From: Acidithiobacillus marinus
Lineage (GTDB): Bacteria; Pseudomonadota; Gammaproteobacteria; Acidithiobacillales; Acidithiobacillaceae
Length of the DNA: 32,456 nt
Reading direction: 5' to 3'
NCBI RefSeq assembly: GCF_002847505.1
Contig: NZ_MXAV01000039.1
Coordinates: forward strand, 1 to 32,456
The notes under the pieces were generated by a model, which was given only the letters and a program-made list of their open reading frames with translations, was not told the origin of the DNA and did not search any database. Within the stretch, counting starts at the first letter, position 1, and every line of letters starts with the position of its first letter. Positions 2,646 to 18,384 of the stretch are shown one piece after another. The translations under genes and the position numbers were made by a program.

Positions 2646-2749
2646 TGTTGGTTCCTCGCTGTTTTAATCGATAGCACGAGATAGGCTTATTCAGAATAAT
2701 GTATATATCTATATTGATGCAGTTTTTACGGATCCAATAGCTCCGAGCG

Positions 2750-3262: not shown

Positions 3263-3654
3263 GATGGCTAAGGTTTTATAAGATACCAGAGAAAAATAGG
3301 AGACAGCCAATAATGCCACGACAAAAAATGAAAATCTATAGGTTGATATTATAATGTTCTTTTTATTCTTTTTGCTGGTGTTTTTTATTTATATTTTTTG
3401 CCCATGAGGTATAAAACAGAAAAACCATTATGAACCCCGCTACCATAGAGGCTCTATTGTGTATGCAATAAATGCAAATTCTAAAAAAATAACCAGAAAT
3501 ATACTTGCAGGCAATGTCACGCGGATTATGAGCTGTAACCATTTGAATCACATTGTATTATCCATGTTGAATTTATGGGATTGGCTATGTAAATAAAAAT
3601 ACACGTATGAACTCATTAAATCATCATACCGATTGCGAGTTTGTTAAATTAAGT
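3263..3654. other. AT-rich intergenic stretch without a convincing gene
   Basis: About 390 bp between two minus-strand GNAT genes. It contains long T and A tracts around 3359-3410. A 62-codon minus-strand frame (3363-3551, GTG start) has no ribosome site and no recognisable family, and I do not call it. It presumably holds the promoter of the GNAT gene that starts at 3262. Confidence 0.5.
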
Positions 3655-4128
3655 TTATTCGATATTTTTTAGAATTTTATTAATCGAATTAACATCTGCG
3701 CCCATTACAACTATTTTTTGACTGACTGAGAAACCGAATTTTTCGTAAAAGTCTTGGGCTGGACTCGAACGACTTGTAAGGAGATAAATAGAGCCGACAT
3801 TTTCAGCAACTGTCAACTCAGAAAAAAGTGTTGATAATAATTTTTTTCCGATACCTTGCCTCTGAACTGAAGGCAAGACAAAAAACTCCTGTAGCTGAAA
3901 TTTATTTTTATTGAGCCCACCCTCAATTTGACCGAAAGCGGCACCAACAACTGAATTATTGATAATAGCTACATAACCGCGCCTCGATTGGGCTTGAAGC
4001 TTGAGACAAATGCAGGCGCGGGCGGCTTCGGCAGTCCATGCTTCATTCCAGGGAGGCGCTGAAAAACAAGTCACAAAAACCTGACTGATTTCTTCAACAT
4101 CTGACTCGTCGATAGGGCGAATAATCAT
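3655..4128 (-). CDS. GNAT family N-acetyltransferase, AAC(6')-like N-terminus
   Basis: A 157-residue GNAT protein. The N-terminal segment FSAPPWNEAWTAEAARACI resembles the PPWNExW region found in many aminoglycoside 6'-acetyltransferase-related GNATs. The acetyl-CoA-binding motif A is QEFFVLPSVQRQGIGKKLLSTL (Q-R-Q-G-I-G-K), and motif B is SSPAQDFYEKFGF. The ATG at 4128 has an AAGG ribosome site about 9 nt upstream. It follows the DUF4177-like gene by about 100 bp in the same direction. It is AT-rich like its neighbours. Membership in GNAT is clear; aminoglycoside modification is only a possibility suggested by the N-terminal motif. Confidence 0.85.
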   Translation of the reverse strand: MIIRPIDESDVEEISQVFVTCFSAPPWNEAWTAEAARACICLKLQAQSRRGYVAIINNSVVGAAFGQIEGGLNKNKFQLQEFFVLPSVQRQGIGKKLLSTLFSELTVAENVGSIYLLTSRSSPAQDFYEKFGFSVSQKIVVMGADVNSINKILKNIE

Positions 4129-4228
4129 ATCGTGAACCTTAAGGACTTAACGTAGAACTAAGTGTCTGCTGAAAGCGTACAGCTTAAGTAACTGGGTATA
4201 TAATAAAGCTATCACGCTGTCTCACGCT

Positions 4229-4402
4229 TCATGAAAACCCAACCCCAGACTGACTACCTCCAAGTGCCAATGGACGAATGTCTTGAATATTCCACTCTTT
4301 TTCCCCCAGAGCATTCAGGCGATCCTCTAATTCTTGCCACTTTACTTCGCCTTTGACAAAACCCTTTTCATTGAACTGCTCGATTTTGTATTCGTACCGC
4401 AT
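4229..4402 (-). CDS. Small DUF4177-like protein
   Basis: A 57-residue protein that starts MRYEYKIEQFNEKG and contains WQELEDRLNALGEKEWNI. This is the layout of DUF4177-type small proteins (a beta strand with YEYK, then a helix with LNxLGxxGWEL). I chose the ATG at 4402 because an excellent ribosome site, AAGGAGAG, lies just upstream; the open frame continues to 4486, but that extension (MAAQGKAF...) does not look like part of the family. No catalytic residues are known and the function is unknown. It sits between two GNAT genes on the same strand, with about 130 bp to the upstream GNAT stop. Confidence 0.65.
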   Translation of the reverse strand: MRYEYKIEQFNEKGFVKGEVKWQELEDRLNALGEKEWNIQDIRPLALGGSQSGVGFS

Positions 4403-4529
4403 ATTTCTCTCCTTCGAGTCTGAGCCTCTCAGCGCTTGGGGATAACTAACAACGGACAGCAAGAAAGCTTTGCCTTGTGCCGCCACGACGGCACTTCATA
4501 CTCGGAACAAAATAGTCGTTCAGAATATT

Positions 4530-5465
4530 CTATTGCAACGATATGAATTCGTATTTTAGGATCTCGGGCCTACCAGCGCCAATTGCTGTTTTGCGAGAGG
4601 CAATGTTATGGGCATGGATAGTTCCAATCATGGTCTTTTCACCTTCACCTGCTTTATTGAGCAGTGCCGCAGCTTCACGCTGCACATATTTTGCGAGCCC
4701 TCGTCCCTGAAAGGCTGGATGAATAATTTCTTCAACCACAACATAATCCTGAATAAATTCAATGGCCCTCCATGCTGTAGCAAATAAACCAATCCGCTCA
4801 TTATTCAGGGTAACAAAATGTAATGTTCCCGTTTCCAGGCATTCCGCCAGATCTTCCGCATCGGCGGGCCGAACCTCAAGAGCAAGACTAGGGTTCAAAC
4901 TGGCAAATGCCTGATGACATTCCGCTACATAATCTGCCGCTTCTCGAGAATCCTCACAGTCTATCAATTGTAAAGAAGGTAAAGGTGGATATTGGGCCAA
5001 CGTATTGATTCGACCAGAATGGATCGATTGGTCAACACATCCTTCGGGTAACGTCATCCCGTCATGAGGGTTTCCCCGCAACGACCTAACATGCAATGGC
5101 CTAAATATTGCCCACTCCCGGCGAATGACAGCCATCCACAAATCCCAATCTGGCACTCCAGACCAGGCCAGAAGATCAACAAAAGGACGGTTCAGGTTTC
5201 GGTTATAAAAACGAATACCACCCAGCAATAAACCATCACCCACAGGAATGATGCGTTGCAGATAATCTTCAGATTTAACTCCCGGCAAGTCAATATGATC
5301 GCTGAAAAGTGCTGAATATGCAGAATCGCTGCAACAACCTATCTGCATTTCAAGCCAACTTGATATTCTTTCGTTAAGCCAGCTTGCGGAATAAATGTCC
5401 CTCAAATCATAAAATCGTTGACGGGTTGACTGATACAACTGCTCAAATTCAGAGTTTAACTTCAT
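4530..5465 (-). CDS. GNAT acetyltransferase with N-terminal extension
   Basis: A 311-residue protein. Roughly the C-terminal half is a GNAT domain: the motif-A-like VVEEIIHPAFQGRGLAKYVQREAAALL (Q-G-R-G-L-A) near residues 240-270 and HAHNIASRKTAIGAGRPEI as the motif B equivalent. The N-terminal 160 residues (SASWLNERISSWLEMQIGC, then GGIRFYNRNLNRPFVDLLAWSG) have no fold that I recognise and could be a degenerate second GNAT domain or a substrate domain. The ATG at 5465 has an AAGG about 9 nt upstream. It lies about 100 bp downstream of another GNAT gene. The enzyme class is well supported; the substrate is unknown. Confidence 0.8.
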   Translation of the reverse strand: MKLNSEFEQLYQSTRQRFYDLRDIYSASWLNERISSWLEMQIGCCSDSAYSALFSDHIDLPGVKSEDYLQRIIPVGDGLLLGGIRFYNRNLNRPFVDLLAWSGVPDWDLWMAVIRREWAIFRPLHVRSLRGNPHDGMTLPEGCVDQSIHSGRINTLAQYPPLPSLQLIDCEDSREAADYVAECHQAFASLNPSLALEVRPADAEDLAECLETGTLHFVTLNNERIGLFATAWRAIEFIQDYVVVEEIIHPAFQGRGLAKYVQREAAALLNKAGEGEKTMIGTIHAHNIASRKTAIGAGRPEILKYEFISLQ

Positions 5466-5564
5466 GGTTATTAACCTTGATAAATAGCTTATGAATGTTA
5501 ATGCTTGAACTTTTTAAGGTTTGTGGAATACATATTCTGATAGACAATAAAATAAACCCAAGGA

Positions 5565-6164
5565 TCAAAGGATAACGTAGTTCTCACAGGAGGTAACCCA
5601 CCAATCACATTCCGCAAAGTACACGGCATGGTCAACGTATTGCCCTCGCAGGCATTCGGCCTCCTTACGAAAACCATGAAAACGATAGCCAAGCCGTTCA
5701 GGGATTCGCCGACTTTGGTTATTTTCGACTGCGCATCGAATTTCCACACGACGAATACCTTGGCGGCATAATGCCTCTTCTGTTAAATAATTACAGACTC
5801 GTGACATGATTCCCCGTCCTTGGCTTTTCTCGTTCAACCAGTATCCCAGTCGACCAGCGCTCGAAAACGGTTCAAAGTAATGAAAACCTACACGCCCCAC
5901 AATTTTATGATTGCATTTAATGACGTAATTAACATCCGTTCCCTGCTGAAGCTGAACAGGAGCTTTCAGAATATGATTCCTTGTATCATCAACACAACGG
6001 GTTTCATCAACCCACGGGAGCCAACGAGCTAGATATTCCCTGTTTTCATCAATCAAAGCAAAAACTTCTTCTGCTTGTTCAACCGACAGAATAGCAATGA
6101 TTAGCGATTGGTTGATTTTTATCTCTGGAGGCCATAAAAGTTTTTTTGTTGTTTCTTTTTCCAT
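5565..6164 (-). CDS. RimJ/RimL-type GNAT acetyltransferase
   Basis: A 199-residue GNAT of the ribosomal-protein-serine/alanine acetyltransferase branch (RimL/YdaF-like). Diagnostic segments are FALIDENREYLARWLPWVD near residues 36-54, VGRVGFHYFEPFSSAGRLGYWLNEKSQGRGIMSRV (motif A Q-G-R-G-I-M) and RVEIRCAVENNQSRRIPERLGYRFHG (motif B NxxSxxIPERLGF; here R replaces the usual second small residue). Family members acetylate N-terminal amines of ribosomal proteins or small molecules. The C-terminal end (WWVTSCENYVIL) is a little longer than usual. It starts 47 bp after the GrpB-like gene in the same direction, so the two may be co-transcribed. Confidence 0.85.
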   Translation of the reverse strand: MEKETTKKLLWPPEIKINQSLIIAILSVEQAEEVFALIDENREYLARWLPWVDETRCVDDTRNHILKAPVQLQQGTDVNYVIKCNHKIVGRVGFHYFEPFSSAGRLGYWLNEKSQGRGIMSRVCNYLTEEALCRQGIRRVEIRCAVENNQSRRIPERLGYRFHGFRKEAECLRGQYVDHAVYFAECDWWVTSCENYVIL

Positions 6165-6210
6165 ACAATTTATCTCGATTAGTAAATAAATGTTTCATTG
6201 CTACTAAATT

Positions 6211-6690
6211 TTACTGACCTCTTTCAAGAACCGACAAAATAAATTTTGCTTTTTCATTGCGATAGCAATCTGGGCTAGAGGAAGCAAATTTGCGCTTGAT
6301 CTCGTTATATTGATGTACAAGGCACGCATTGGCTAGCAAAGCATCTCGAAAATGCATGAAGAACTCGAACTCTGAACCCGCCGCAACAATTTGCAAGGCA
6401 ATGTCCAAGTCCCGGCGAGGAGACACCAACATGCAGAGTTCCGGAGTGCGCAGCGTCCCAGTCTTAACTACATAGCCCAACGCCTCTAGAGCTTCAACGG
6501 TATCTCGGTGCTTGAGTGCGTCAACTACGATACAGATATCCAGATCACCTTTGGAAATAGCACCAGGAATAGCCGATGCACCGATATGTTCAAACCTTGC
6601 ATCTGTTAGCAAGGGGGAGAGTTCATCGACCACCGACTCATAAGCAGCGCTGGCGAGAGATTGGTAGCAAGATGGTTCGAGTAGCTTCAC
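6211..6690 (-). CDS. GrpB-like nucleotidyltransferase family protein
   Basis: A 159-residue protein of the GrpB/UPF0157 branch of the nucleotidyltransferase superfamily. The signature FEHIGASAIPGAISKGDLDICIVV (residues about 34-57) corresponds to the H-[IV]-G-S-T-[AS]-[VI]-P-G...K-x-[IV]-D-[IV] motif, and RDLDIALQIV supplies a further acidic strand. The C-terminal HFRDALLANACLVHQYNEIKRKFA matches the usual FRDYLRxHPxxxxxYxxLK helix. The substrate is not established for the family. The start is GTG at 6690 with GAGGGA about 8 nt upstream. It is probably the first gene of a minus-strand run with the RimL-like GNAT. Confidence 0.8.
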   Translation of the reverse strand: MKLLEPSCYQSLASAAYESVVDELSPLLTDARFEHIGASAIPGAISKGDLDICIVVDALKHRDTVEALEALGYVVKTGTLRTPELCMLVSPRRDLDIALQIVAAGSEFEFFMHFRDALLANACLVHQYNEIKRKFASSSPDCYRNEKAKFILSVLERGQ

Positions 6691-7493
6691 TGGGGCAATC
6701 CCTCAAAAGTAATAAATTTATGACGCATTAAATATACAAAAAATGAGTAAATAAGGCAATAAGGTAGAAAAAATTCATCAAGATGATTACATCATCCCTG
6801 TTGTGGAGCATATGGTTCGTTATTTTTTTATCATTGAGTGTGCTGGATGCATACTGTCACCACTTTATATCCAGGTTTCGATCCATCGCGGAAAAAGGTA
6901 CTTGGTGGATGCACAGTGGATTCACTTGCTGCTCAGTCCGGAGCCTCATTGTCACCAGTGCTATGACTGGTGCCAATAAGGATGTTAAGTGTCTCCAGTT
7001 TGTCACCATTCAGTACGCGATCAATTGACACCAAGTTCACAAGTGATTTGCAGTGATCCATTCATTTTCGTTCGAGAAGGGTAAAGAAAAATTCAGCTGT
7101 TATTGAGTGGGTAATGATCTATCAAATGAGGAAATATGGATTGCTCTGGTCGGAGATCTCTGTAGGCTTCTTTCGATTCATGCCGTTGCTGAATTCTGGC
7201 CAGTGAATCTCAAATGATAATTTCATCTCATTGAATATATTATGTTTAAATAATATATTTTGAAACGATATAAGGTGAATATGCAGTTCAAGTTAACCCG
7301 GATAAACCAGATGTTCGGTTTCCATGTGTGGTTCCAGTGCAGGGCTTGCTGGATCAACCTGCTATTATTGAATACCTAGGTAATCCAATAAATGATCTCT
7401 TCCTCTCTGTCTCGATATCTGATAAGTTTCATCTGGTATAGATTTTTAATAGCGTATATTATTGCTGTTGATGAGATTGTGAAGGAACAAAAG
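6691..7493. other. AT-rich gene-poor stretch
   Basis: About 800 bp in which I find no convincing gene. An 81-codon plus-strand frame at 6783-7028 starts with a hydrophobic stretch but lacks a ribosome site and a recognisable family. Around 7240-7260 there is a short TTTAAATAATATATTT palindrome-like AT tract. The region probably includes the promoter of the minus-strand GrpB-like gene and, at its right end, the start of the chimeric frame 7494-8264. Confidence 0.45.
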
Positions 7494-8264
7494 ATGAAAA
7501 CTCATAGACCCACGATCCGAAGCCTTTATATCACGGGAAGCATTTATCTGGCTGGAATGCTTTTTGTGATTGTGATGGGCGCCCATTGCTTCCATTTGCA
7601 CCTCCCGCTATCGTTTGGCTGGTTGGGTTTAGGTATTTTGGGTAATTTTGTCATCGCTTATCCGGCTGGCATGATCTGGCATGCATTTAGATCCAAGCAG
7701 TTTGATTGGGAAATTGGTCATGCCACCCAGGCTTATTGGGTTTGTGCGACAAAGATCGCCAAAGCAGCGGTGACAATACCTGGATCGATGCGAACGCTGC
7801 ATCAACAAACCTTCCCCAAAAGCCTGCTCCAAAAAGGTTCGGTAGGTGTTCGACTCAACGGTACCCATGCGCGGGGCCGCCAGTCCGGCAAAAAATGCCG
7901 GGGTGGTGGACAATCGGCCAAAAAAGCCAGCTCCGATGATCCTGGAGGGGATGCGGGCGGAGAGCCGCCTCGCACCGTTCCTCCATGCTTTCTCAGCTTT
8001 GCCGATCTCGCGCACCGATGGGCCTGCTCGGAAAAAACGCTCCGCAATCAGGTATGCCTGGGTAAACTTCCCGCTCCGCATAAACTCCCAATCGGTCCCC
8101 GATTCCCCATTGGCGTGATCGAACAGATTGAACAAAGCGCCCTCTCTGCAAAACGCTTGTCCCCAAACCTCCTTCCGTCGTATCCGCAAGTCCCCGTTGT
8201 ACCCAGTCCACGCCGGCGTGGCCGTCCGCGCATCATTTCCCGAAAAAAGGGAGGTGACCTATGA
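7494..8264 (+). CDS. Chimeric ORF: membrane N-terminus plus HTH DNA-binding C-terminus
   Basis: One open frame carries two unlike halves. From the ATG at 7494 (ribosome site GAAGGA, 7-8 nt spacing) about 90 residues are AT-rich coding with two membrane segments (SLYITGSIYLAGMLFVIVMG and LGLGILGNFVIAYPAGMIW). From about 7780 the DNA becomes GC-rich and the protein basic. Residues about 163-210 (FLSFADLAHRWACSEKTLRN, then GKLPAPHKLPIGPRFPIGVIEQIEQ) look like an AlpA/MerR-type helix-turn-helix of the kind that controls excision in mobile elements, followed by an AT-hook-like RRRGRPRI tail. The HTH gene may really start at the ATG at 7788, although that ATG has no ribosome site. The frame may be a fusion created at the left edge of the mobilizable element. 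Domain call moderate, gene structure uncertain. Confidence 0.5.
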   Translation: MKTHRPTIRSLYITGSIYLAGMLFVIVMGAHCFHLHLPLSFGWLGLGILGNFVIAYPAGMIWHAFRSKQFDWEIGHATQAYWVCATKIAKAAVTIPGSMRTLHQQTFPKSLLQKGSVGVRLNGTHARGRQSGKKCRGGGQSAKKASSDDPGGDAGGEPPRTVPPCFLSFADLAHRWACSEKTLRNQVCLGKLPAPHKLPIGPRFPIGVIEQIEQSALSAKRLSPNLLPSYPQVPVVPSPRRRGRPRIISRKKGGDL

Positions 8265-8702
8265 GGATGCGTAACATCATTGTTTCAGGCGCAATGCTCC
8301 GTCCAACCATGGGCAACAGACGAGGGAGCGCTACTTTCCCCATATTGGCTGCGCAGTTCTTAAATGGTGTTCATACCCCGCTCAGCTTTTACGATATTCC
8401 TGGAGATCTTTCCTGGTCGGACCTGATGGTGCGGTCATCCGGTGGCTTTCCCCCCGGCGCCGATGGCGCCGACCCCCAAGGGTATTACCGGCGGGGAAAA
8501 CGAGCGATCGGGCAACAGCGCGGCATGGCCAATCCCCATGGCGATTCCAAAGCACCGAAAGACAGACGGCCAGACTCGGTGATTCGCATGCGGAAGGGAT
8601 GTCTCCCCAGGGACGGCAGAAAACATCTTTTGCAAGGAATCGGCCTGTTCGCATTGGGGGAATCGGTGAGGAGGCGGGGCTGTTGGGTGGGGAGCGAGCC
8701 AT

Positions 8703-8739
8703 GTTATCCCCCCGCGCACTACGTTTGCCGGGTGATAAC
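8703..8739. repeat. Inverted repeat GTTATC/GATAAC, candidate oriT stem
   Basis: GTTATC at 8703-8708 pairs with GATAAC at 8734-8739. The stem extends, after one mismatch, by CCC/GGG. It lies about 100 bp upstream of the MobC-like gene. The position and size fit an oriT stem bound by a relaxosome protein, but there is no direct evidence of nicking. Confidence 0.4.
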
Positions 8740-8771
8740 GTCTCGCAATGGGGTGAACCCCCTTGACCCCC

Positions 8772-8820
8772 GCCATCATCGTCACCTGCGCCCTCCGGTT
8801 GCAGGCTCGGCGATGATGGC
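8772..8820. repeat. Ten-base perfect inverted repeat just upstream of mobC
   Basis: GCCATCATCG at 8772-8781 is the exact reverse complement of CGATGATGGC at 8811-8820. Inside it a second pair, CCTGC at 8785-8789 and GCAGG at 8801-8805, would continue the stem after a small internal loop. The apical loop contains TGCGCCCTCC, which from memory resembles the IncQ-type nic region (TGCGCCCT). The repeat ends 15 bp before the mobC start and just before its ribosome site, so it could also act as an operator or leader hairpin. Confidence 0.55.
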
Positions 8821-8835
8821 CACGGAGGTTTTGCC

Positions 8836-9225
8836 ATGACGGATGAGGTTCGGAACCCCATCAAAAAGCGGGGTGGTCGTCCCCGATTGCCGGATGATGT
8901 GCATCGGACGATCAGGCGAGAGGTTTGGCTTTCTCCGGTCGAGCTGGCCGACCTGAAAGCCAAGGCCGCTGTGCAGGGATTGCGGGTTGGGGAATATATG
9001 CGATTGGTCATTACGGAGGCCAAGTTACCCACACCGCCAGTGCCGCCGATCAATCTTCAGGCATGGCAAGAACTGGCACGGTTGGCGGCCAATGCCAACC
9101 AATGTCAATGGGCTATCAATGGAGGCAAGGCCCATGCGTGGGACCGTGATTTGATTCCGCAGCTGATAGAGGCAATTCGTGCAGTCCGTTTGGCTTTGCT
9201 GGGCGTGGAGGCAGACGATGATTGA
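8836..9225 (+). CDS. MobC/TraJ-like relaxosome accessory protein
   Basis: A 129-residue protein predicted to bind oriT DNA and help the relaxase melt and nick it. After a basic N-terminus (KKRGGRPRLPDD) comes a ribbon-helix-helix-like stretch, IRREVWLSPVELADLKAKAA, then GLRVGEYMRLVITEAKLP. A bacterial mobilization-protein tail follows, with INLQAWQELARLAANANQCQWAIN (usual form INRxxWxELARxGxNLNQIA). The ATG at 8836 has GGAGG 7 nt upstream. Its stop overlaps the relaxase start by 8 nt (ATGATTGA), which indicates translational coupling. Its place directly between the oriT-like repeats and the relaxase supports the call. Confidence 0.8.
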   Translation: MTDEVRNPIKKRGGRPRLPDDVHRTIRREVWLSPVELADLKAKAAVQGLRVGEYMRLVITEAKLPTPPVPPINLQAWQELARLAANANQCQWAINGGKAHAWDRDLIPQLIEAIRAVRLALLGVEADDD

Positions 9226-11590
9226 AAAAATCATCAAAGGCACCGGTGCACGCGGATTGGCGAACTATCTGCTGGCCGAAAAAGACCATAACGGCGCGGC
9301 GCGGCCAAGGCATGATCTGATCGGCGGCACGCTTTCGGGACGTAGTGCCCGAGAACTGGCGGCAGAAATAGGGGTTTTGCGCCGGATGCGCCCGAATCTA
9401 CAGAAAGCTGTTGGTCATGTTTCCCTACGGGTTCCTGAAGGGGATCGGGTTTTGTCTGACCGGGAATGGGCCATGATCGGTGATCAATGGGCTTCAGATA
9501 TGGGCATGGATGCCTACGCCACCGTCTGTCATGGCGACCATATCCATATCCTTTTTTCCCGCATCAACAGCGATGGTTCCGTGGTTTCCGATGCTCACGA
9601 TTACCGAAGAGGGGAGGCCGCTGTCCGGAAAATAGAGCAGGATTTCGATCTGGTGAAAGTAGAACCTTCCTCTTTACTGGAGCCAGAAAATGCCCTCAAT
9701 CACAAGAAGGCCCCGACCAAAGGGGATTTCATGGCGATAGAAAAAGGCGAGATACCTGCACGCCTGTTCATGCAGCAGGCTCTGGATGCGCTCCTGGAGA
9801 AAAAGCCGACCGTGACGCAGTTCATCGAGGATCTTGAGACGCTGGGCGTCATCGTTAAGCCGAACCTGGCCACTACCGGAAAACTGTCCGGCTTTGCCTA
9901 TCACTACGGTGATTATCGCTTCACCTCAAATAGCCTGGGTCGTGGTTATACGTTTGGAAACATGCAAAAAAAGGGGCTTTCCTATGAGCAAGACAGAGAT
10001 ATTGAAAGAATACGCGCAGCAAAAGACCGAACAGCAAGTTTCCTTGCTGACGAACGCGCCGGAGATGATCCGGCAAATCCAGCAGATGCGGCAGGAGTTA
10101 TTACGGTTGCCGGAAGCGTTGGCAGTGCAGATAGCCGAGAACTTGGGGCCGATGGAGGAAATGGCTCAAGCCCTGGACCAGGGACTGGATACCCAGAGGG
10201 CGATCATGCAGCCTCTGATACAGGCCGCCGTGGACGCCATCCAGAAAGAGATGCAGATGCTTTCGCAGGACAAAGTGAAGCGGACCGTGAAAATGGCCAG
10301 GGAATCTCACAAGAAAGCGATGCAATCAAATCGGGAATTGAAGCACTGGAGGCAGGAAGCAAAGGCTTCACGGGAGGAGATTCAAAAGATACGGCAACAG
10401 TTCTGGATAGCGGCAGGATCAGCGGCGACACTGGCAGCGGTCGTGATAGGGATGATTCTGGGATTGTTACGGTAACGAACTGGAATGATCGCTTCAAAAA
10501 GGCCTCTGCGGCAAAGCGTCGGGCTAAAGAACAGCCTGACCCTGATAAGCAGAATTATTCGAGTTTGCGCGATGCTGCACACATGGCTGATCTGGTGGCG
10601 TACCTGCAGTCTATTGGCTTGCCCGTCAAAAAATCCGGGGTGAAGGATTGGGTGGTGGTTGACCGTTACCACGTAACGCAAGAAAAGGATGGGTATTTTG
10701 TCTGGTGTGACTGGGAAGGGGCTGATGGTGGTGATCCCATCGATTTTTGCGTGAAAGAAATGGGATTGAGTTTTCAGCAGGCCTTGGCCAATCTTTCAGG
10801 TTCAACGATCACGAAAAAAGCGGAAAAAAGAACGGTCCTATCTCATCAACTGCCTGTTGCTCCACCCGTCTGTCGGAATTCTGATCCGGTTATGCAATAT
10901 TTGCAGGATCGCGGTATCAGCCAAAAAACCATCCGGAGTGCCCAAGGGGCAGGGTTCTTGCGTTTTGTGGATTACAAAGGGATTCCCTCTGTGGCCTTTT
11001 GTGGCAGGGGGGATGGTCAATTGCGATCCATGACTCTCAGGCTGATCCAATCTATCCAGTCATGGGACGGGAAAAAACCACTGACAAAGTTGGAGGTAAA
11101 GCATTCCGATAAATCCTATCCAGCCATCTGGCGTGGGGATGATCCAAGTTCTGTCTGGGTTGTGGAAGGCGGCATAGACGCGTTGGCTGTTATCGATTGG
11201 TACAAGACCCATCGGAAGCCTATCCCTTCCGTCATCGTATCTGGTGGGGCAGGTGTCCGCTCGTTCTTAGACCAGACGCATGTGCAGAAGATACTGAAAG
11301 AGGCCGATACGGTTTATGTGGCTATGGAACGCGAGAAAAATACCAAAATACAGGCCAAAACTGATGCCGCGCACGAACAGCAGATCGATACAATCTGGAA
11401 GCTCGGTTGCGAAAAGGTGTTTGCCTGGATGCCGCCAGTCGACACCAAAGACATCGCCGACGCATGGAAAGCGGGGGCTTTGCCGGAACCGCATGATCCG
11501 TTGGCTCATATGCGGAAGAAAATTGGGGATGAATCCGCATCAATTTCGCCACAAGCGCCTGCAATTGTATCAACGTTTGATTGGGAGTAG
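9218..11590 (+). CDS. MobA-like relaxase fused to a Toprim/primase domain
   Basis: A 790-residue bifunctional mobilization protein. The N-terminal domain is a relaxase that would nick oriT and stay bound to the transferred strand: a candidate catalytic Tyr17 in GLANYLLAEKD, and the metal-binding His motif HGDHIH at residues 105-110 followed by ILFSRIN. Residues about 255-419 are a low-complexity G/S/D-rich linker, exactly the part that is overprinted by another gene. The C-terminal part carries a primase-type region with a CDWEGADGGDPIDFCVKE segment and a Toprim motif VVEGGIDALAV (Glu650, Asp654). I prefer the ATG at 9218 (GGAGG upstream, 8-nt overlap with mobC) over an open extension to 9179. 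The layout recalls RSF1010 MobA-RepB, but the primase type is different. The relaxase looks MOBP-like; the class needs an HMM check. Confidence 0.85.
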   Translation: MIEKIIKGTGARGLANYLLAEKDHNGAARPRHDLIGGTLSGRSARELAAEIGVLRRMRPNLQKAVGHVSLRVPEGDRVLSDREWAMIGDQWASDMGMDAYATVCHGDHIHILFSRINSDGSVVSDAHDYRRGEAAVRKIEQDFDLVKVEPSSLLEPENALNHKKAPTKGDFMAIEKGEIPARLFMQQALDALLEKKPTVTQFIEDLETLGVIVKPNLATTGKLSGFAYHYGDYRFTSNSLGRGYTFGNMQKKGLSYEQDRDIERIRAAKDRTASFLADERAGDDPANPADAAGVITVAGSVGSADSRELGADGGNGSSPGPGTGYPEGDHAASDTGRRGRHPERDADAFAGQSEADRENGQGISQESDAIKSGIEALEAGSKGFTGGDSKDTATVLDSGRISGDTGSGRDRDDSGIVTVTNWNDRFKKASAAKRRAKEQPDPDKQNYSSLRDAAHMADLVAYLQSIGLPVKKSGVKDWVVVDRYHVTQEKDGYFVWCDWEGADGGDPIDFCVKEMGLSFQQALANLSGSTITKKAEKRTVLSHQLPVAPPVCRNSDPVMQYLQDRGISQKTIRSAQGAGFLRFVDYKGIPSVAFCGRGDGQLRSMTLRLIQSIQSWDGKKPLTKLEVKHSDKSYPAIWRGDDPSSVWVVEGGIDALAVIDWYKTHRKPIPSVIVSGGAGVRSFLDQTHVQKILKEADTVYVAMEREKNTKIQAKTDAAHEQQIDTIWKLGCEKVFAWMPPVDTKDIADAWKAGALPEPHDPLAHMRKKIGDESASISPQAPAIVSTFDWE
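9984..10475 (+). CDS. MobB-like membrane protein overprinted inside the relaxase gene
   Basis: A 163-residue frame lying entirely within the relaxase gene in another reading frame. It begins at the ATG at 9984, preceded by AAGGGG at about 8 nt. The protein looks real: a helical, Gln/Glu/Lys-rich chain (AQQKTEQQVSLLTNAPEMIR, then QIQQMRQELLRLPEALAVQI and a basic KAMQSNRELKHWRQEAKASR coiled-coil) ending in one membrane helix, FWIAAGSAATLAAVVIGMIL. In contrast, the relaxase frame over the same bases is a low-complexity linker. RSF1010 has the same arrangement: mobB lies within mobA, and MobB has a membrane segment and assists transfer. Homology to MobB is inferred from layout and topology, not from sequence similarity. 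Confidence 0.7.
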   Translation: MSKTEILKEYAQQKTEQQVSLLTNAPEMIRQIQQMRQELLRLPEALAVQIAENLGPMEEMAQALDQGLDTQRAIMQPLIQAAVDAIQKEMQMLSQDKVKRTVKMARESHKKAMQSNRELKHWRQEAKASREEIQKIRQQFWIAAGSAATLAAVVIGMILGLLR

Positions 11591-11636
11591 GGAAAAATCA
11601 TCCGGCGACCATACAGAAGTTGAGCGCGATATTGAA

Positions 11637-12620
11637 TCACTCTAGCAACTTCGCCAGATCTTCTGCCCTCAAGTGCGTATAGCGTTTCAGCATCTGCAAG
11701 GTCTTGTGTCCAGTGATGGCGGCAACCTGCACAGGATTAAGTCTTTTCTCAAAGAAGCGACTGGTGGCTTCGTGACGGAGGTCGTGGAAACGCAGATCTT
11801 TTATTTCAGCGCGTTTGCAGGCTGCGGCAAATGAATGGGAAATATCTGTGCCTGGAAAAACCTTGACGTTGATGTTAGGCGGTAACTTTTTCAGGACGGC
11901 AATGGCGCGACTGGACAGTGGAATGAACCGATCTTCCCCATTTTTAGTGTCAAGTAATTGGGCAGTACATTTGGTAAAGTCAACATCTTTCCAGAGTAAC
12001 TTCTGTATCTCCCCCCGCCGCATCCCGGTTTCCAGGGCGAACAGGATGATTGCCTTTAATGATGGAGTACATTCGCCCAACAGCTTCTTTTCTTCAATCG
12101 GTGACAACCGTCGGTCCCGTGCCTTACCTGGCGATGGTTTCCGCACTGACAATACCGGATTGCGTAACCCTTCCATACGCCACTCCTTCATGGCGACCGT
12201 GTACAGATTGGAGATGATGGCGAGTTCCAGGCGGACGGAGCTATCAGAAAGTCCCGCCTTCAATCGCCGATCCCGATATTCTGCGAGGTCAGCGCCGCGA
12301 ATTCGTGATAAGTGCAGTTTGGCGATTTTGTCCATCTTGAGGTTGCCGATACGGTAGAGTTCAATCTTGCCCGATTTCTTCAGGCTAGAGACTTCTCTTC
12401 CGTAACGATCCAGAGCATCAGCCAGCGTTGTGCAGTCCGCGTCGCTCTGATTCTGCCACAATCCGCGCTCCATGGCGGATTCTGTGAGTCGTGCCCACGC
12501 TTCCGCATCCCGTTTGGTCCGAAAGGTTTTCGACTGGCTCGGATACCCCTTTTTGCGCACGATGGCTTGCCATCCGATCGTGACGCCATCCTGGTCTTCC
12601 CGTGAATTTATAGTCGCCAT
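11637..12620 (-). CDS. int: Tyrosine recombinase/integrase of the mobilizable element
   Basis: A 327-residue site-specific tyrosine recombinase. The N-terminus resembles an arm-binding domain (AIVRKKGYPSQSKTFRTKRD), residues about 60-150 the core-binding SAM-like domain, and the C-terminal catalytic domain holds the full active-site set: Arg201 in TGMRRGEI, Lys226 in DTKNGEDRFIPL, His279 and Arg282 in FHDLRHEATS, His305 in GHKTLQ and the nucleophile Tyr314 in LKRYTHL. I chose the ATG at 12620 (GGGAG 6 nt upstream) rather than a TTG at 12638. The gene starts about 90 bp from the 3' end of tRNA-Leu and reads away from it, the usual layout for integrases that use the tRNA 3' end as attB. It is convergent with the relaxase gene. 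Confidence 0.9.
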   Translation of the reverse strand: MATINSREDQDGVTIGWQAIVRKKGYPSQSKTFRTKRDAEAWARLTESAMERGLWQNQSDADCTTLADALDRYGREVSSLKKSGKIELYRIGNLKMDKIAKLHLSRIRGADLAEYRDRRLKAGLSDSSVRLELAIISNLYTVAMKEWRMEGLRNPVLSVRKPSPGKARDRRLSPIEEKKLLGECTPSLKAIILFALETGMRRGEIQKLLWKDVDFTKCTAQLLDTKNGEDRFIPLSSRAIAVLKKLPPNINVKVFPGTDISHSFAAACKRAEIKDLRFHDLRHEATSRFFEKRLNPVQVAAITGHKTLQMLKRYTHLRAEDLAKLLE

Positions 12621-12711
12621 GCTGCACTCCCGCTGCAATCAATCCGGAAGCTTAGTGCAGCATATGTGCAGCGTAAAATCAATTTGAATTTGCGAATTGA
12701 CTCTAAGTATT

Positions 12712-12796
12712 TGGTGCGAAAGGGGAGACTCGAACTCCCACGCCGTGCGGCGCTGGAACCTAAATCCAGTGCGTCTACCAATTCCGCCACTCTCGC
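12712..12796 (-). tRNA. tRNA-Leu (anticodon UAG)
   Basis: An 85-nt tRNA with a long variable arm. The acceptor strand GCGAGAG pairs with CTTTCGC (one G-U pair) and is followed by discriminator A and an encoded CCA. The D arm reads TGGCGGAATTGGTAGACGCA, and the anticodon stem-loop is CTGGA-TTTAGGT-TCCAG, giving anticodon UAG. The T arm is GGGAG-TTCGAGT-CTCCC. The gene is intact. The integrase lies directly at its 3' side, so the tRNA 3' end is the likely attachment site of the mobilizable element. Confidence 0.97.
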
Positions 12797-12851
12797 ATAC
12801 GCGCTATCTTATGCGTTATAGATCCTGAGGACAATCACAGGAGTGCCGAGC

Positions 12852-13478
12852 ATGAGCAAGATACAGCAATCCCAGCGCTTACGTCGTTTGTTGGCAGTAG
12901 AATCGGCGCGGATCATGGCAGAGGAAGGGGTCGTTGATTTTCGGGTGGCCAAGGAAAAAGCGGCGCGACGTTTGGGGACGGGCGGGGATGCCCAGCACCA
13001 TTGGCCGAATAATAGTGAAGTGGAAGCAGAATTGCAGGCTAGACTCACCCTTTTTCATGGTCCGGACCATGCCACAGATCTGCGCCAACTGCGTGAACAG
13101 GCGCTGCAAGCCATGTTATGGCTGGAAGACTTTCAACCGCGCCTGACGGGACCAGTGCTGAGTGGCACCGCGACCCGGCATGGGGTTATTACCTTGCATC
13201 TGTTTGTGGATACGCCGGAGAGCGTGATTTTCTTTTTGATGGACCAGAAAACGCCCTACGAAGAAAGCTGGCAACGTCTGCATTTCGGTGATGCTCCGGC
13301 AGAAGATTATCCCTGCCTGAAAGTAGAGCATGGCGGCGCGGAAATCCGTCTGGTCATTTTTGGTCTGGACGAAGATCGCCGAAGTCCGGCTTCACCGGTG
13401 GACGGCAAGCCCCTCAAACGATTCGGAGTCCCGCAATTACGGAAGCTGCTGGAAAAAACGCAATGCAGTGCGGTCTAA
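12852..13478 (+). CDS. Conserved hypothetical protein
   Basis: A 208-residue soluble protein that I do not recognise as a named family. It opens MSKIQQSQRLRRLLAVESARIMAEEGVVDFRVAKEKAARRLG, a basic helical N-terminus often seen in uncharacterised proteobacterial proteins, followed by an alpha/beta region with PVLSGTATRHGVITLHLFVD and HGGAEIRLVIFGLDEDRRSP. The latter resembles a nucleotidyltransferase-like scaffold, but no catalytic motif is clear. The ATG at 12852 has AGGAG 8 nt upstream; a GTG at 12843 overlaps that site and is less likely. It lies 55 bp past the tRNA-Leu gene on the other strand and marks the return to chromosomal base composition. Confidence 0.75.
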   Translation: MSKIQQSQRLRRLLAVESARIMAEEGVVDFRVAKEKAARRLGTGGDAQHHWPNNSEVEAELQARLTLFHGPDHATDLRQLREQALQAMLWLEDFQPRLTGPVLSGTATRHGVITLHLFVDTPESVIFFLMDQKTPYEESWQRLHFGDAPAEDYPCLKVEHGGAEIRLVIFGLDEDRRSPASPVDGKPLKRFGVPQLRKLLEKTQCSAV

Positions 13479-13552
13479 GGGTATCTGTGCTGCTTTTCCC
13501 CTGACCAGTGTTTGCCAGTTTATTCTTGGCCTGTAGGCAGAATGGCGGATTT

Positions 13553-14443
13553 TTATTCCTGGGGACGCAAATGCTGCCAACTGACCAGAGCTAGAGCGAT
13601 GAAAATACAGACCATGCCCACCGCTTCCCAGCCCCCGGGGGTTTCGCCCAATTGCAGCCAGGCAGTGACCACGCCAATGAGAGGGGCGGCCAGCGTGCCC
13701 ATTCCGGCAATGCCGGAAGGCAGTTTTTGCAGGGCGTAAGCCCAGAGAAAGTAGGCCAGAGCAGTTCCAGGAATGGCGTTATAGAGCAGGGCACCGACAA
13801 AAACCGGGGTCCAGTGAATAGTCAGCGGGTCAATCAACAGGGTCATGACGATCAGTCCAAGGCCGCCAAAAATGGTCTGCCAGAGGGTGCTGTTGAATAA
13901 ATCCATGCCGGGGGGCGCATAACGCTTTTGCCAGAGGGCCGAGGCCGCCCATAAAATGCCGGCAATCAGGGCAATCAGGCTGCCTGTCCACTCTCCACCA
14001 AAACTCCAGGGCTTGAGAATGGCGATCAGACCCAAAAGCGCCAGTACCACCGCCGGCCACTGCCAGCCGTGGAGTTTTTCGCCCAGCAAGGGCCAGGCAA
14101 AGACAATCAGCCAAAGCGGCATCATGTAGACGAGAATAGCGGTTTTCCCCGCCCCGCCATATTCCAGCGCCCACAGAGCCAGACCGATAAATCCGGTGGT
14201 CTGGAGCAGGCCAAAGGGAATGATGTAGCGGGCAGAGGGCATGGATAATGGTCGTTTCATCCAGAGCATCAGGGGAATGAGGACGAGCACGCTCAGCCAG
14301 ATACGGAGAGTGGCAAAAAGCAGGGGCGGGCAGTCAGTAATGGCGACTTTCATGACTACCCAGTTATATCCCCAGATCATGGAGAGCAGGGCCAGGGCGC
14401 TTAAAGGCAAAAGGGCGGCTGGCGATTTTTGATCAGAGGACAT
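13553..14443 (-). CDS. EamA/DMT-family transporter
   Basis: A 296-residue inner-membrane protein with about ten transmembrane helices in two repeats, typical of EamA (drug/metabolite transporter) exporters such as RhaT/YdcZ-type permeases. The N-terminal repeat starts ALALLSMIWGYNWVVMKVAI, and the second repeat begins about residue 150 (GSLIALIAGILWAASALWQK). The conserved PLWLIVFAWPLLGEKLHGWQ and LGETPGGWEAVGMVCIFIAL segments (the Glu of the LGE motif) are in the expected helix 4 and helix 9 positions. The substrate is unknown; relatives export amino acids or metabolites. It is separated from the upstream ene-reductase gene by 90 bp that contain a terminator hairpin, so it is probably its own unit. 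Confidence 0.85.
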   Translation of the reverse strand: MSSDQKSPAALLPLSALALLSMIWGYNWVVMKVAITDCPPLLFATLRIWLSVLVLIPLMLWMKRPLSMPSARYIIPFGLLQTTGFIGLALWALEYGGAGKTAILVYMMPLWLIVFAWPLLGEKLHGWQWPAVVLALLGLIAILKPWSFGGEWTGSLIALIAGILWAASALWQKRYAPPGMDLFNSTLWQTIFGGLGLIVMTLLIDPLTIHWTPVFVGALLYNAIPGTALAYFLWAYALQKLPSGIAGMGTLAAPLIGVVTAWLQLGETPGGWEAVGMVCIFIALALVSWQHLRPQE

Positions 14444-14470
14444 CAGTCAGAGGCTCCGAATATAGAGAAA

Positions 14471-14493
14471 GCCGGGATAGTAACTGTCCCGGC
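14471..14493 (-). terminator. Rho-independent terminator after the ene-reductase gene
   Basis: On the minus strand, GCCGGGA pairs with TCCCGGC around a 9-nt loop and is followed by TTTCTCTAT. The hairpin lies between the stop of the oxidoreductase gene and the start of the EamA gene, so it would end the tetR-hydrolase-reductase operon. The T tract is short. Confidence 0.6.
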
Positions 14494-14532
14494 AACATTC
14501 ATGTTTACTTCTGAATGGGGTTGGAAAATGCG

Positions 14533-15606
14533 TCAGCGCAATTTTGCCCGATCATATTGCTCCGGCCACTGCAAGTCTACTCCCAGTTCCCGGGCGGCAT
14601 GCAGGGGCCAGTAGGGATTGCGCAGTAATTCCCGGGCGAGAGCAATGCCGTCTGCCTGCTCGTTCACCAGAATATGCTCAGCTTGCATGGCCTGGGTAAT
14701 TAGCCCGACGGCCACCGTAGGAATGCCGACTTTTTCGCGAACATGTTGGGCGAAAGGGGTTTGAAAGCCGGGTCCGGCAGGGATGACAGCATCAGGAGTC
14801 ATCCCGCCGCTGCTGCAGTCGATGACGTCTACGCCTTTATCCTTCAGGTGTTCGGCAAGAACCGTGGATTGTTCCAGGTCCCAGCCGCCGGGTACCCAGT
14901 CGGTGGCGGAAATGCGTACCCACAGCGGCAGATGCTCAGGCCAGACAGCGCGCACGGCATCAGTAATTTCCAAAGGCAGGCGCATCCGGTTTTCGAGGCT
15001 GCCGCCATAGGCATCTTCCCGTTGATTACTGATGGGTGACAGAAAACTGTGGAGGAGATAGCCGTGGGCCATGTGCAATTCCAACACTTCGAACCCGGCC
15101 TCCAGAGCCCGGCGGGCTGCGGCCACAAAGTCCTTGCGGACTTTTTCCAGATCCTGAACACCCATGGCTTCAGGAACGCTGTGACTGGCACTGAAGGGCA
15201 GGGGGCTGGGACCTACTGGTAGCCAGCCGTGTTCTGCGTTTGCGGCAATAGGGGCGCCACCATCGAAAGGTGCCTGAGTGGAGGCTTTGCGTCCGGCGTG
15301 GGCAATTTGTATGGCCGGCACTGCGCCCTGCTTTTTCATAAACTGGACGATAGGTGCTAGCGCTGTAGCCTGTTGATCATTCCAGATACCCAGGTCCTGG
15401 GGTGAAATGCGACCTTCAGGGCTGACCGCGCTGGCTTCGGCCATGACCATTCCAGCGCCGCCCACTGCCCGGCTGCCGAGATGGACCATATGCCAGTCAC
15501 TGGCCACACCATCGGGTGTGGAGTACTGACACATGGGGGCGACGATTATCCGGTTACGCAGGGTGATGCTGCGCTGGACCCAGGGTGTAAACAGTTTATG
15601 CGTCAT
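14533..15606 (-). CDS. NADH:flavin oxidoreductase, YqjM/NamA-type ene-reductase
   Basis: A 357-residue Old Yellow Enzyme of the YqjM (thermophilic-like) class. It is an FMN-dependent TIM-barrel enzyme that reduces activated C=C bonds in enones, quinones or nitro compounds with NAD(P)H. Cys26 in APMCQYST is the redox-tuning cysteine typical of this class, and His178/His181 in HMAHGYLLHSFLSP bind the substrate carbonyl. SNQREDAYGGSLENRMRLPLE is the family signature. The ATG at 15606 has GGGAGA upstream and overlaps the hydrolase stop by 4 nt (ATGA), so the two are translationally coupled. It is the last gene of a tetR-controlled operon, like nemR-nemA in enteric bacteria. Confidence 0.93.
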   Translation of the reverse strand: MTHKLFTPWVQRSITLRNRIIVAPMCQYSTPDGVASDWHMVHLGSRAVGGAGMVMAEASAVSPEGRISPQDLGIWNDQQATALAPIVQFMKKQGAVPAIQIAHAGRKASTQAPFDGGAPIAANAEHGWLPVGPSPLPFSASHSVPEAMGVQDLEKVRKDFVAAARRALEAGFEVLELHMAHGYLLHSFLSPISNQREDAYGGSLENRMRLPLEITDAVRAVWPEHLPLWVRISATDWVPGGWDLEQSTVLAEHLKDKGVDVIDCSSGGMTPDAVIPAGPGFQTPFAQHVREKVGIPTVAVGLITQAMQAEHILVNEQADGIALARELLRNPYWPLHAARELGVDLQWPEQYDRAKLR

Positions 15607-16331
15607 GCAGATCTCCCGAGATACTGGTGAAAATGATCCAGGGTCAGGCGCCAGCCTTCTGCAGCCGCTTCCGGGCGGTAACTATCACGGGGGTCGGCAA
15701 AAAATCCATGGGGGGCACCAGGAAACAGGGTCAAGGTATAGCGTTTTTGGGCGGTGCTCAGGGCAGTAGCAATACGCCCATGTTCTTCCGGGGTGATGGA
15801 GGTATCATCAGCGCCATACAGCAGCAGGAGCGGTGCCCGCATCTGGTCGACCAGGTGGAGTAACGGCTGACGTCCGGCGGGATCCTGATCCGGGGCGATA
15901 CCGCCACCGTAGAAAGCCACGGATGCCCCGAGCTTGTCGGCATGCACCGCATTCGCCATAAAGGCAAAACGCCCTCCCATACAGAAACCCACGGCACCGA
16001 TGGCATCGCTGCGGACTTCTGGACGTTTGTGCAGTTCAGCAATAGCCAATCCAGCCTCCTGCATGGCGAGATCGTCCTTCAGGGTTTTGAGATGCCCGAT
16101 GGCATTTTCGAAATCGCTATATTCATAGACCTTGCCGTGATAGAGATCAGGAACAATGGCACAGTACCCGGCTTTTGCAAATCTTTCGGCAACATCCTGA
16201 AAATGACTGTTTACTCCGAAAGCTTCGATAAAAATCACGACTCCGGGATGGGGACCCGGGCTGCCGGGACGGGCGTACCAGGCACGCAGACTTTGATCCA
16301 GTTGCAACCATTCGGAATGGATTTCAGACAT
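15603..16331 (-). CDS. Dienelactone hydrolase family protein
   Basis: A 242-residue alpha/beta hydrolase of the dienelactone hydrolase family, which opens lactones from aromatic ring cleavage or related esters. The catalytic set is visible: Glu36 in FIEAFGVN, nucleophile Cys117 in GFCMGG, Asp175 in YGADDTSI and His208 in GAPHGFF. There is no signal peptide, so it is cytoplasmic. The ATG at 16331 has a near-perfect ribosome site (AAGGAGGT). It starts about 50 bp after the tetR stop and overlaps the ene-reductase gene by 4 nt, so the three genes form one transcription unit. The true substrate is unknown. Confidence 0.92.
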   Translation of the reverse strand: MSEIHSEWLQLDQSLRAWYARPGSPGPHPGVVIFIEAFGVNSHFQDVAERFAKAGYCAIVPDLYHGKVYEYSDFENAIGHLKTLKDDLAMQEAGLAIAELHKRPEVRSDAIGAVGFCMGGRFAFMANAVHADKLGASVAFYGGGIAPDQDPAGRQPLLHLVDQMRAPLLLLYGADDTSITPEEHGRIATALSTAQKRYTLTLFPGAPHGFFADPRDSYRPEAAAEGWRLTLDHFHQYLGRSA

Positions 16332-16379
16332 GACACTACCTCCTTGTGCGGATGTGAAAAGAGGATGCTTATACCGCGC

Positions 16380-16997
16380 TCAGGCGGCTAATGATTGAAT
16401 ATAAACTTTCAGTTGTTCGAGGCAGCGTTGATAGGCCGCTACAGACTGGGCATTTTTCCCGAGGCCGACACAGCCTTCAATGGAGGCGACAATGAAAAGG
16501 GCGATATCCTGGGGCGCGGTATCTGCGCGCACTTTTCCTGAGGCCTGACCTTCCTTGAGCGCCTCGGCGACCACTTCCACCCAGCTCTCGATAATTTTTT
16601 GCAAACTTTGACGAAAGGATTCATCCAGAGGGCTCATCTCTTGAATGAGATTATTCAGGGGGCAGCCGTAGCGAATGACCGATTCATCAGCAGAAGCAAT
16701 TTTTTCTTCGATGAGTTTGAGCAGACCACTGATGGGATCACTATGCTGGGCGAGCATGTTGAACCAGCGACCTTCGAGTTGAGGGCCAATCACTTCTTCA
16801 ATCACCGCAAGACCGAGATCCCGCTTGGTGCCGAAGTGGTGATAAAGGGCGCCTTTACTCACCGAAGTGTTGGCAAGAATGCGCTCCAAACTGGCTGCCT
16901 GAAAGCCGGATTCCAGAATTTCAGAGTAGGCAGCATCCAGCAAGTCACTACGGGTTTGCTCTGGATTACGGATTTTACGTTGAATCATCGTCGTCAT
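16380..16997 (-). CDS. TetR-family transcriptional repressor
   Basis: A 205-residue TetR/AcrR-type regulator. The N-terminal HTH (residues about 38-57, SLERILANTSVSKGALYHHF, followed by GTKRDLG) is canonical. The C-terminal ligand domain contains YGCPLNNLIQEMSPLDESFR and a conserved Cys at the CPLNNL motif, as in TetR proteins that sense reactive or electrophilic compounds. The promoter just upstream overlaps a perfect 9-bp inverted repeat (17006-17029), consistent with self-repression. The predicted transcription start nearly coincides with the ATG at 16997, so the mRNA may be leaderless; a second ATG (16988) is an alternative. It probably also controls the hydrolase and ene-reductase downstream, and perhaps the divergent VOC gene. 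Confidence 0.9.
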   Translation of the reverse strand: MTTMIQRKIRNPEQTRSDLLDAAYSEILESGFQAASLERILANTSVSKGALYHHFGTKRDLGLAVIEEVIGPQLEGRWFNMLAQHSDPISGLLKLIEEKIASADESVIRYGCPLNNLIQEMSPLDESFRQSLQKIIESWVEVVAEALKEGQASGKVRADTAPQDIALFIVASIEGCVGLGKNAQSVAAYQRCLEQLKVYIQSLAA

Positions 16998-17005
16998 GAA
17001 AGTTG

Positions 17006-17034
17006 AAGATACCGACTAAGCGGTATCTTGTCAA
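17006..17034 (-). promoter_or_regulatory. tetR promoter with overlapping operator palindrome
   Basis: On the minus strand a consensus -35 TTGACA (17034-17029) is followed after exactly 17 nt by TATCTT (17011-17006) as -10. The perfect palindrome AAGATACCG-N6-CGGTATCTT occupies 17006-17029, covering the spacer and -10. A bound TetR dimer would block RNA polymerase. Confidence 0.8.
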
Positions 17035-17071
17035 TTATGGTTGCGCCATTCTGCTGTCATCGTTGCAGTGC

Positions 17072-18369: not shown

Positions 18370-18384
18370 AAGTCTCCTGGCCTG

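Follow-up and report, generated by a model that had tools for sequence, protein, structure and literature searches.

A nested frame in a relaxase-primase gene

We examined a 32,456-nucleotide (nt) stretch of Acidithiobacillus marinus DNA (assembly GCF_002847505.1, contig NZ_MXAV01000039.1, positions 1 to 32,456), which is one whole contig and is called the window below. It carries a mobilization gene (mobA) coding for a relaxase joined to a primase-like region, and wholly within this host gene, in its +1 frame, lies a second open reading frame (ORF) with its own ATG. Judged from sequence comparison, the nested frame is probably an expressed and selected gene for a MobB-like accessory protein of the relaxosome, overprinted in the relaxase-primase linker and carried on the same transcript. 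The features concerned, all on the + strand, are as follows.

9218..11590, +, host gene coding for a MOBP-type relaxase (N-terminal part) with a Toprim-type primase region behind it (C-terminal part); PF03432 at E 1.2e-14, primase-like fold, alignment of relatives
9971..9976, +, AAGGGG, putative ribosome site of the nested gene, 7 nt before ATG 9984
9984..10475, +, nested mobB-like gene, 163 amino acids (aa), ATG start, helical, C-terminal membrane helix predicted at about residues 144-162
10490..11587, +, C-terminal part of the host gene, resembling a Toprim-type primase; fold match and weak profile matches

A 163-codon frame preceded by the purine run AAGGGG, in a frame other than that of the relaxase gene, had been described in the original prediction and was confirmed, running from ATG 9984 to a stop ending at 10475. 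A purine run resembling AAGGGG is kept in close relatives, yet the same bases also encode relaxase residues. The product, expected to be a helical protein ending in a membrane helix, is predicted by AlphaFold to be all helical, with two helices; the pTM of this model is 0.28, and hence no fold is claimed. Its hydrophobic segment (residues 144-162) has a mean Kyte-Doolittle hydropathy of 2.15, and the protein ends one residue past this predicted membrane helix.

Could such a frame be open by chance, or as a by-product of the G/S/D-rich composition of the relaxase linker? When the relaxase codons were shuffled synonymously 5000 times, a run of at least 163 codons from the nested site survived in 4.5% of the shuffles, and 20% of them held a +1 run of at least 163 codons anywhere in the gene. 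Long +1 frames are thus frequent in this gene, which favors chance, and the open length of the nested frame is weak evidence taken alone. The frame is considered more than chance because its reading frame, start and end are conserved and because constraint switches between the two frames, as described below.

Selection on the two frames

The original prediction held that the nested frame is the one under selection, with the relaxase frame forming a featureless linker across it, and proposed a comparison of substitution rates in both frames; codon positions, rate ratios and a flank control all bear this out. Between the window and L004, a locus of the same genus with 61% relaxase identity, differences at relaxase codon positions 1/2/3 number 49/26/140 upstream of the overlap (261 codons) and 133/91/209 downstream of it (371 codons), compared to 74/48/38 inside the overlap (162 codons). 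The fast-changing base therefore shifts from the relaxase third position to the nested third position inside the overlap only.

Substitutions were counted in four classes (NN, NS, SN and SS; N, nonsynonymous; S, synonymous), yielding dNN/dNS for the nested frame and dNN/dSN for the host frame; changes to stops were excluded in both frames for the overlap ratios and in the host frame only for the flank ratios. The nested ratio is 0.25 (0.10-0.54) for window/L003, 0.21 (0.10-0.34) for window/L004 and 0.17 (0.08-0.30) for L003/L004, three pairs that share members and hence are not independent. The host ratio in the overlap is 0.64, 0.90 and 0.87 for the same pairs, with intervals that include 1. 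In the flanks the relation is reversed, with a host ratio of 0.08-0.29 and a pseudo-nested ratio of 0.67-1.31. The nested frame is slower in the overlap and the host frame is slower in the flanks, suggesting almost no constraint on the host linker and strong constraint on the nested frame. Low nested ratios were also obtained in further pairs: 0.32 in L018/L032, 0.18 in L024/L112, 0.31 in L024/L113, 0.33 in L112/L113 and 0.28 in L097/L100, as well as 0.43 in the RSF1010-type control L026/L034.

Some of these comparisons weigh against selection on the nested frame. Pseudo-nested flank ratios of 0.67-0.76 in distant pairs indicate that the method leans low, a lean far smaller than the drop seen in the overlap values. 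Close pairs of IncQ-3 plasmids lack nested constraint, with ratios of 2.16 in L014/L015 and L014/L099 (L015 and L099 are identical over the nested stretch) and 0.86 in L014/L016, and the ratio in L015/L016 is 0.45 (0.16-1.35). These close pairs have 24-45 differences; since window/L003 is informative with 35, selection on the nested frame may be relaxed among close IncQ-3 plasmids. More distant pairs with >220 differences, L014/L102 and L016/L102, yield a nested ratio of 0.32 each (0.19-0.50 and 0.20-0.50).

Stop codons in the nested frame of homologues had been named in advance as the finding that would speak against a gene. None occur in 13 of 13 loci, whereas the third frame carries 5-15 stops in each. 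The absence of constraint in the close IncQ-3 pairs is what a chance frame would predict, but the constraint ratios with their flank control, the stop-free frame, the conserved start and membrane helix, and the similarity of the nested frame to the L018/L032 and IncQ-3 groups, to which the host frame has none (hhalign probability 0.1), make a chance origin hardly credible.

Conserved start and membrane end

A start at ATG is found in 29 of 29 loci checked. At this point the host frame reads YxxxRD in 25 of the 29; the others read YDQDRE (L051), YEQDKD (L107) and, in two MOBQ genes, HERNRQ and HERDRQ. The other end of the protein is also kept, with a hydrophobic stretch of at least 1.6 in 27 of 28 aligned nested proteins (alignment A7) and of 1.58 in the remaining one. 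The nested ATG follows an in-frame stop at a distance of 3-6 nt in 13 of 28 loci, some of them near-copies.

These features bear on another way of making the protein, in which the nested frame would be translated as the tail of a frameshifted relaxase, fusing the relaxase domain to a membrane helix without a start of its own. The frame is indeed open upstream of the ATG for 168 nt in the window and 348 nt in L004, leaving space for a shift, but the stop just before the ATG in 13 of 28 loci leaves almost no room for one, and the ATG is kept throughout. Production by frameshifting is therefore considered very unlikely, and translation from the nested ATG is preferred.

One locus departs from this plan. 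In a Gallionellales relaxase (L095, 3300-3503) the conserved start, MSKIE, opens a nested frame of just 68 aa with no membrane helix, possibly a decayed mobB.

Distribution and age of the overlap

Direct tblastn searches of plasmids with the nested protein gave nothing at E up to 0.01, so relatives were sought through the relaxase. Within the genus, the relaxase has a match in 8 of 17 genomes. Five loci beyond the window (L003 to L007) have the relaxase domain and the linker, and all five keep the nested frame, the C-terminal part of the host gene being different in L007. In G001 the relaxase frame stops short of the nested site, 70 nt from a contig end, and G011 has fragments. Among plasmids, 295 records match the relaxase. 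A nested +1 frame of 227 aa is present in the plasmid pGNB2 and in its close relatives pWES-1 and p5MO13m20, and eight further records include five with the nested frame (L018, L020, L021, L023 and L024) and three in which it is not present (L019, L022 and L025). A search of 369 genomes of the class found one relaxase match besides that of the window, L017, whose nested +1 frame ends in a hydrophobic stretch and has a somewhat different start. A search of 398 genomes of the phylum found five, none with a nested frame at the conserved start: L027 to L029 are short relaxases, L030 could not be placed, and L031 has a 260-aa +1 frame that extends beyond the relaxase end and lacks the conserved start.

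A wider survey took the best 80 of 230 relatives in genome contigs and 8 in viral contigs, and 81 of these 88 loci were kept. Two other scans, one of genome contigs with the window relaxase and one of viral contigs with A2, had nothing confirmed. A +1 ORF of at least 100 aa with a membrane helix, starting no more than 120 nt from the match end, is present in 23 of the 81 loci; the longest +2 ORF starting at that site is 31 aa. Most of the 58 loci without a nested ORF (50) belong to one clade of short relaxases (365-487 aa), nearly all of them from enterobacterial genomes by title and five from viral contigs. The seven survey loci left out of the tree are L101 and L103, which reach contig ends; L037, on the contig of L008, whose relaxase breaks off ahead of the motif at 70 nt from the end of the contig; and L080, L120, L121 and L122, which end within the matched relaxase domain or shortly past it. 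The +2 runs found in two of the latter (L120 and L122), 180 and 537 aa long, are presumed to be the shifted relaxase frame.

In a tree of 97 relaxase domains, 37 carry the nested frame. This label requires 5 changes on the tree, a count that cannot separate gain from loss, compared to a mean of 29.6 for shuffled labels (0 of 500 shuffles were as low), and 3 of the changes are forced by starred branches. It is a quick tree in which 16 rows were labeled by hand. The placement of several long branches is uncertain, and the window clade and the L018 clade join each other as long branches. Shared contigs (L036 is the L006 contig; L097 and L098 lie on one contig) and near-copies (L102, L105 and L106) mean that locus counts overstate the number of independent cases.

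The same +1 frame at the same relaxase motif is thus found in plasmids and chromosomes of many Proteobacteria. An independent origin of the overlap, which the original prediction had considered, or a recent one, is not borne out by the start motif common to 25 of 29 loci and the 5 changes versus 29.6. The pattern fits one old gain of the nested frame and a few losses, suggesting that this MOBP branch has carried the overlap by inheritance for a long time and that it did not newly arise in this lineage. IncQ-3-like mob genes were also seen in contigs binned as Gracilibacteria and Chloroflexota (L096 and L099), placements that are most likely binning errors.

Similarity to MobB and proposed function

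The search of the 163-residue protein with hidden Markov models that the original prediction had suggested gave a divided answer: no family for the window protein, and Mobilization_B (PF17511) for its L018 counterpart, at 4e-13. With the window protein as query, no PF17511 match appears at E up to 1, which places this protein outside the family at the tested cut-off; PF17511 matches 7 of 28 nested proteins at E up to 0.1. Similarity between groups of nested proteins was examined with hhalign. The L018/L032 nested proteins match RSF1010/DN1 MobB with probability 98 (E 7e-14). The window family matches L018/L032 with probability 95 and the IncQ-3 nested proteins with 81, while reversed controls, like the host and third frames of these comparisons, score no more than 1. 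Compared directly, the window family and RSF1010-type MobB reach 7.

Other results of these searches weaken the case for a MobB. The window protein has no match above curated cut-off in Pfam or NCBIfam and no match in PHROGs; its best weak profile match is TIGR04211 (E 0.0011, 18.6 of 65 bits), and its weak matches look like coiled coil. Its predicted shape, a long helix ending in a membrane segment, is a common one. The match between L018/L032 and RSF1010/DN1 is partly at the DNA level, with host and third frames scoring 94 and 92. The first 14 residues are dual coded, overlapping a conserved relaxase motif; when they are removed, the score of the window family falls to 24 (E 9e-4) against L018/L032 and to 73 against the IncQ-3 nested protein. 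Homology of the window protein to RSF1010 MobB through intermediates is nevertheless called probable, rather than proven by sequence, because position, frame, start, membrane end and intermediates agree.

Two further sets of matches were rejected. The many weak coiled-coil matches of the relatives' nested proteins were put down to composition, and a PDB search of the window protein, which found VAMP2 only (0.019 and 0.072), was taken to reflect a helix with a membrane end.

If the nested gene is real, is its product a MobB in function? It could instead be an entry-exclusion, inhibitor or regulatory membrane protein. The lack of any family above cut-off for the window protein would allow this, as would the precedent of ColE1 MbeD, which is nested in the +1 frame of its relaxase gene and named a mobilization/exclusion protein. 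Its position, start motif and membrane end, however, match those of the L018 protein, a Mobilization_B member, and of IncQ-type MobB, and a function unrelated to MobB is considered unlikely.

RSF1010/R1162 MobB is an integral membrane protein that also stabilizes the relaxosome. We prefer a MobB-like role by analogy with it, in which the protein would hold the relaxosome at the membrane or at the coupling protein. By the title of a 2007 paper by Parker and Meyer, cited in PMC3297438, transport signals of the R1162 relaxase/primase reportedly require MobB. In the window, translation of the nested protein would begin at its own ATG within the mobA message, its long helical part may contact the relaxase and/or MobC at oriT, and its C-terminal helix would sit in the inner membrane. 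The protein might thereby stabilize the relaxosome and bring it to the coupling protein of a type IV secretion system supplied by a helper, in the way that R1162/RSF1010 MobB does for MobA.

The host gene and its neighborhood

The ORF list places the start of the host gene at GTG 9179; ATG 9218 is most likely the relaxase start, because relatives align from there. The original prediction of a MOBP-looking relaxase is supported by PF03432 above cut-off, which makes the domain MobA/VirD2-like, and H105, H108 and H110 are invariant in 15 relatives. Typing, which covered the relatives pGNB2, pWES-1 and p5MO13m20, places these in MOBP. A PDB search with the relaxase gave no match. The predicted Toprim-type primase is supported by weaker evidence. 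The model of the C-terminal region is of moderate confidence (mean pLDDT 76, pTM 0.62), and Foldseek found only two PDB matches at E up to 0.001, a T4 primosome chain, presumably gp61 (E 1e-5, TM-score 0.37), and the T7 primase-helicase (E 1.6e-4, TM-score 0.34), both with low TM-scores. Pfam Toprim_3 is weak and subthreshold in 5 of 7 family members and gives none for the window itself, and the region has a PHROG DNA primase match at E 0.0023. The genes and sites around the host gene are as follows.

8692..8739, +, candidate oriT inferred from GAGCGAGCCATGTTATC, aligned to the published IncQ-3 oriT core
8836..9225, +, relaxosome accessory gene resembling mobC/nikA; PF21983 (NikA-like) at E 3e-8; 8-nt overlap with the relaxase start
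11637..12638, -, tyrosine integrase; PF00589 at E 3e-25
12712..12796, -, tRNA-Leu, candidate attachment site of the element

The oriT-like core is followed by an imperfect inverted repeat (8703-8715 / 8727-8739), and the block is conserved upstream of mobC. The IncQ-3 oriT core of pGNB2 is, as its reverse complement, AGCAAGGTGTAA; the literal published core is absent upstream of the window mobC, where the aligned variant only is present. The mob genes, integrase and tRNA can reasonably be guessed to form an integrative mobilizable element. A search for a direct repeat of at least 12 bases of the tRNA end found none, and hence no att site is claimed. With genome G016, the window shares 6886-17035 at 87% and 17134-21701 at 80%, a stretch that extends past the tRNA and whose right end was set by the length of sequence compared. 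Left of this shared stretch lies a run of cargo-like genes (1344-6690, - strand) for an MFS transporter, three GNAT acetyltransferases and a GrpB-family protein. At the two ends of the contig, positions 1-564 and 31175-31737 hold the same sequence inverted (arms of 468 and 100 nt, 100% complementary), perhaps an insertion sequence element where the assembly broke.

Comparison with known mobilization systems

The IncQ-3 plasmids share the gene plan of the window. In pGNB2, pWES-1 and p5MO13m20, a mobC and a MOBP relaxase with a homologous primase region accompany a nested +1 frame with a membrane helix. Their nested protein differs in its length of 227 aa, with 40 residues past the helix, and in being plasmid borne, whereas the window carries what may be an integrated element. 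MOB-suite types pGNB2 and p5MO13m20 as IncQ2 and pWES-1 as rep_cluster_995; pGNB2 is listed as IncQ-3 in PMC7557826. There, the IncQ-3 mobilization module is given as mobA and mobC, and the term mobB is absent from the main text. The gene tables of pWES-1 and p5MO13m20 label the nested protein hypothetical, and that of pGNB2 omits it. For pWES-1 (L015, 1501-3942), both the nested frame and the primase part are entered as hypothetical proteins and the relaxase is unlisted, which may be a gap in an incomplete PLSDB table.

The literature searched, seen in part, showed no account of a mobB nested in the gene of a MOBP relaxase that has a Toprim-type primase, which is not proof of absence. The nested gene would add a missing component, a predicted membrane protein encoded inside mobA, to a large group of mobilizable plasmids and elements. 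Deleting or trimming the mobA linker, or scoring mobility from mobA and mobC alone, would overlook it. The locus is, moreover, a clear example of overprinting with the constraint apparently on the inner frame and not on the outer one, in several lineages, and should be useful for testing overlapping-gene finders.

Plasmids p31A16004_B_KPC (L018) and pPS-MS-17-188-3 (L032) carry the nearest relaxases outside the genus in the tree (42-44% domain identity), with the same +1 frame and MSKTE start, and NCBI names their nested protein IncQ-type MobB. They join a MOBP relaxase to a RepB-type primase instead of the Toprim-type of the window, and MOB-suite types both records as non-mobilizable. The IncQ-1 MobB of RSF1010/R1162 type (pQ1, L026) and that of DN1 (L034) are likewise nested in +1 after the relaxase domain of a relaxase-primase fusion, with an ATG start, a membrane helix and a constrained nested frame; at the start their host frame reads HERxRQ, in the place of YxxxRD in MOBP members. 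The hosts differ in having a MOBQ relaxase and a RepB-type primase versus MOBP and Toprim-type. Their MobB has 20-23 residues more after the membrane helix and belongs to PF17511 (the NCBI IncQ-type mobilization protein MobB), which the window protein does not match. According to PMC5572225, mobB and repB of RSF1010 overlap mobA. The IncQ-2 MobB, e.g., that of pTC-F14, is a different thing from nested MobB, being an accessory gene outside mobA that is listed among oriT-binding accessory proteins in PMC6856555 and PMC12375680.

These likenesses raise the possibility, tentatively put forward here, of one overprinted mobB common to MOBP and MOBQ relaxases. The relaxase domain ahead of it and the primase behind it (RepB or Toprim) would have been swapped around it; the nested gene would mark an old recombination joint, with selection on mobB and not on the relaxase keeping the linker. 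Under the same tentative reading it would have been overlooked both in IncQ-3 plasmids and in a number of other relaxase genes, being unannotated there or called hypothetical.

ColE1 offers a parallel for the arrangement. Its MbeB and MbeD (MOBP5) are small proteins encoded wholly inside the relaxase gene in the +1 frame, as in the window, and MbeB has a hydrophobic stretch by eye. ColE1 has two nested genes versus one here, its mbeA frame has 537 codons, and we know of no fusion of mbeA to a primase. MbeB was rejected as a sequence homologue (hhalign 0.5 against the window family, reversed control 2.2), and PF04837 (MbeB_N), which ColE1 MbeB itself matches at 3.6e-22, is not among the matches of the window protein. 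According to a figure legend of PMC8953408, ColE mobA wholly overlaps mobB and mobD, and IncQ mobA overlaps mobB and repB. Since mobB and mobD of ColE plasmids lie inside mobA, a nested mobB in a MOBP relaxase gene is not unusual.

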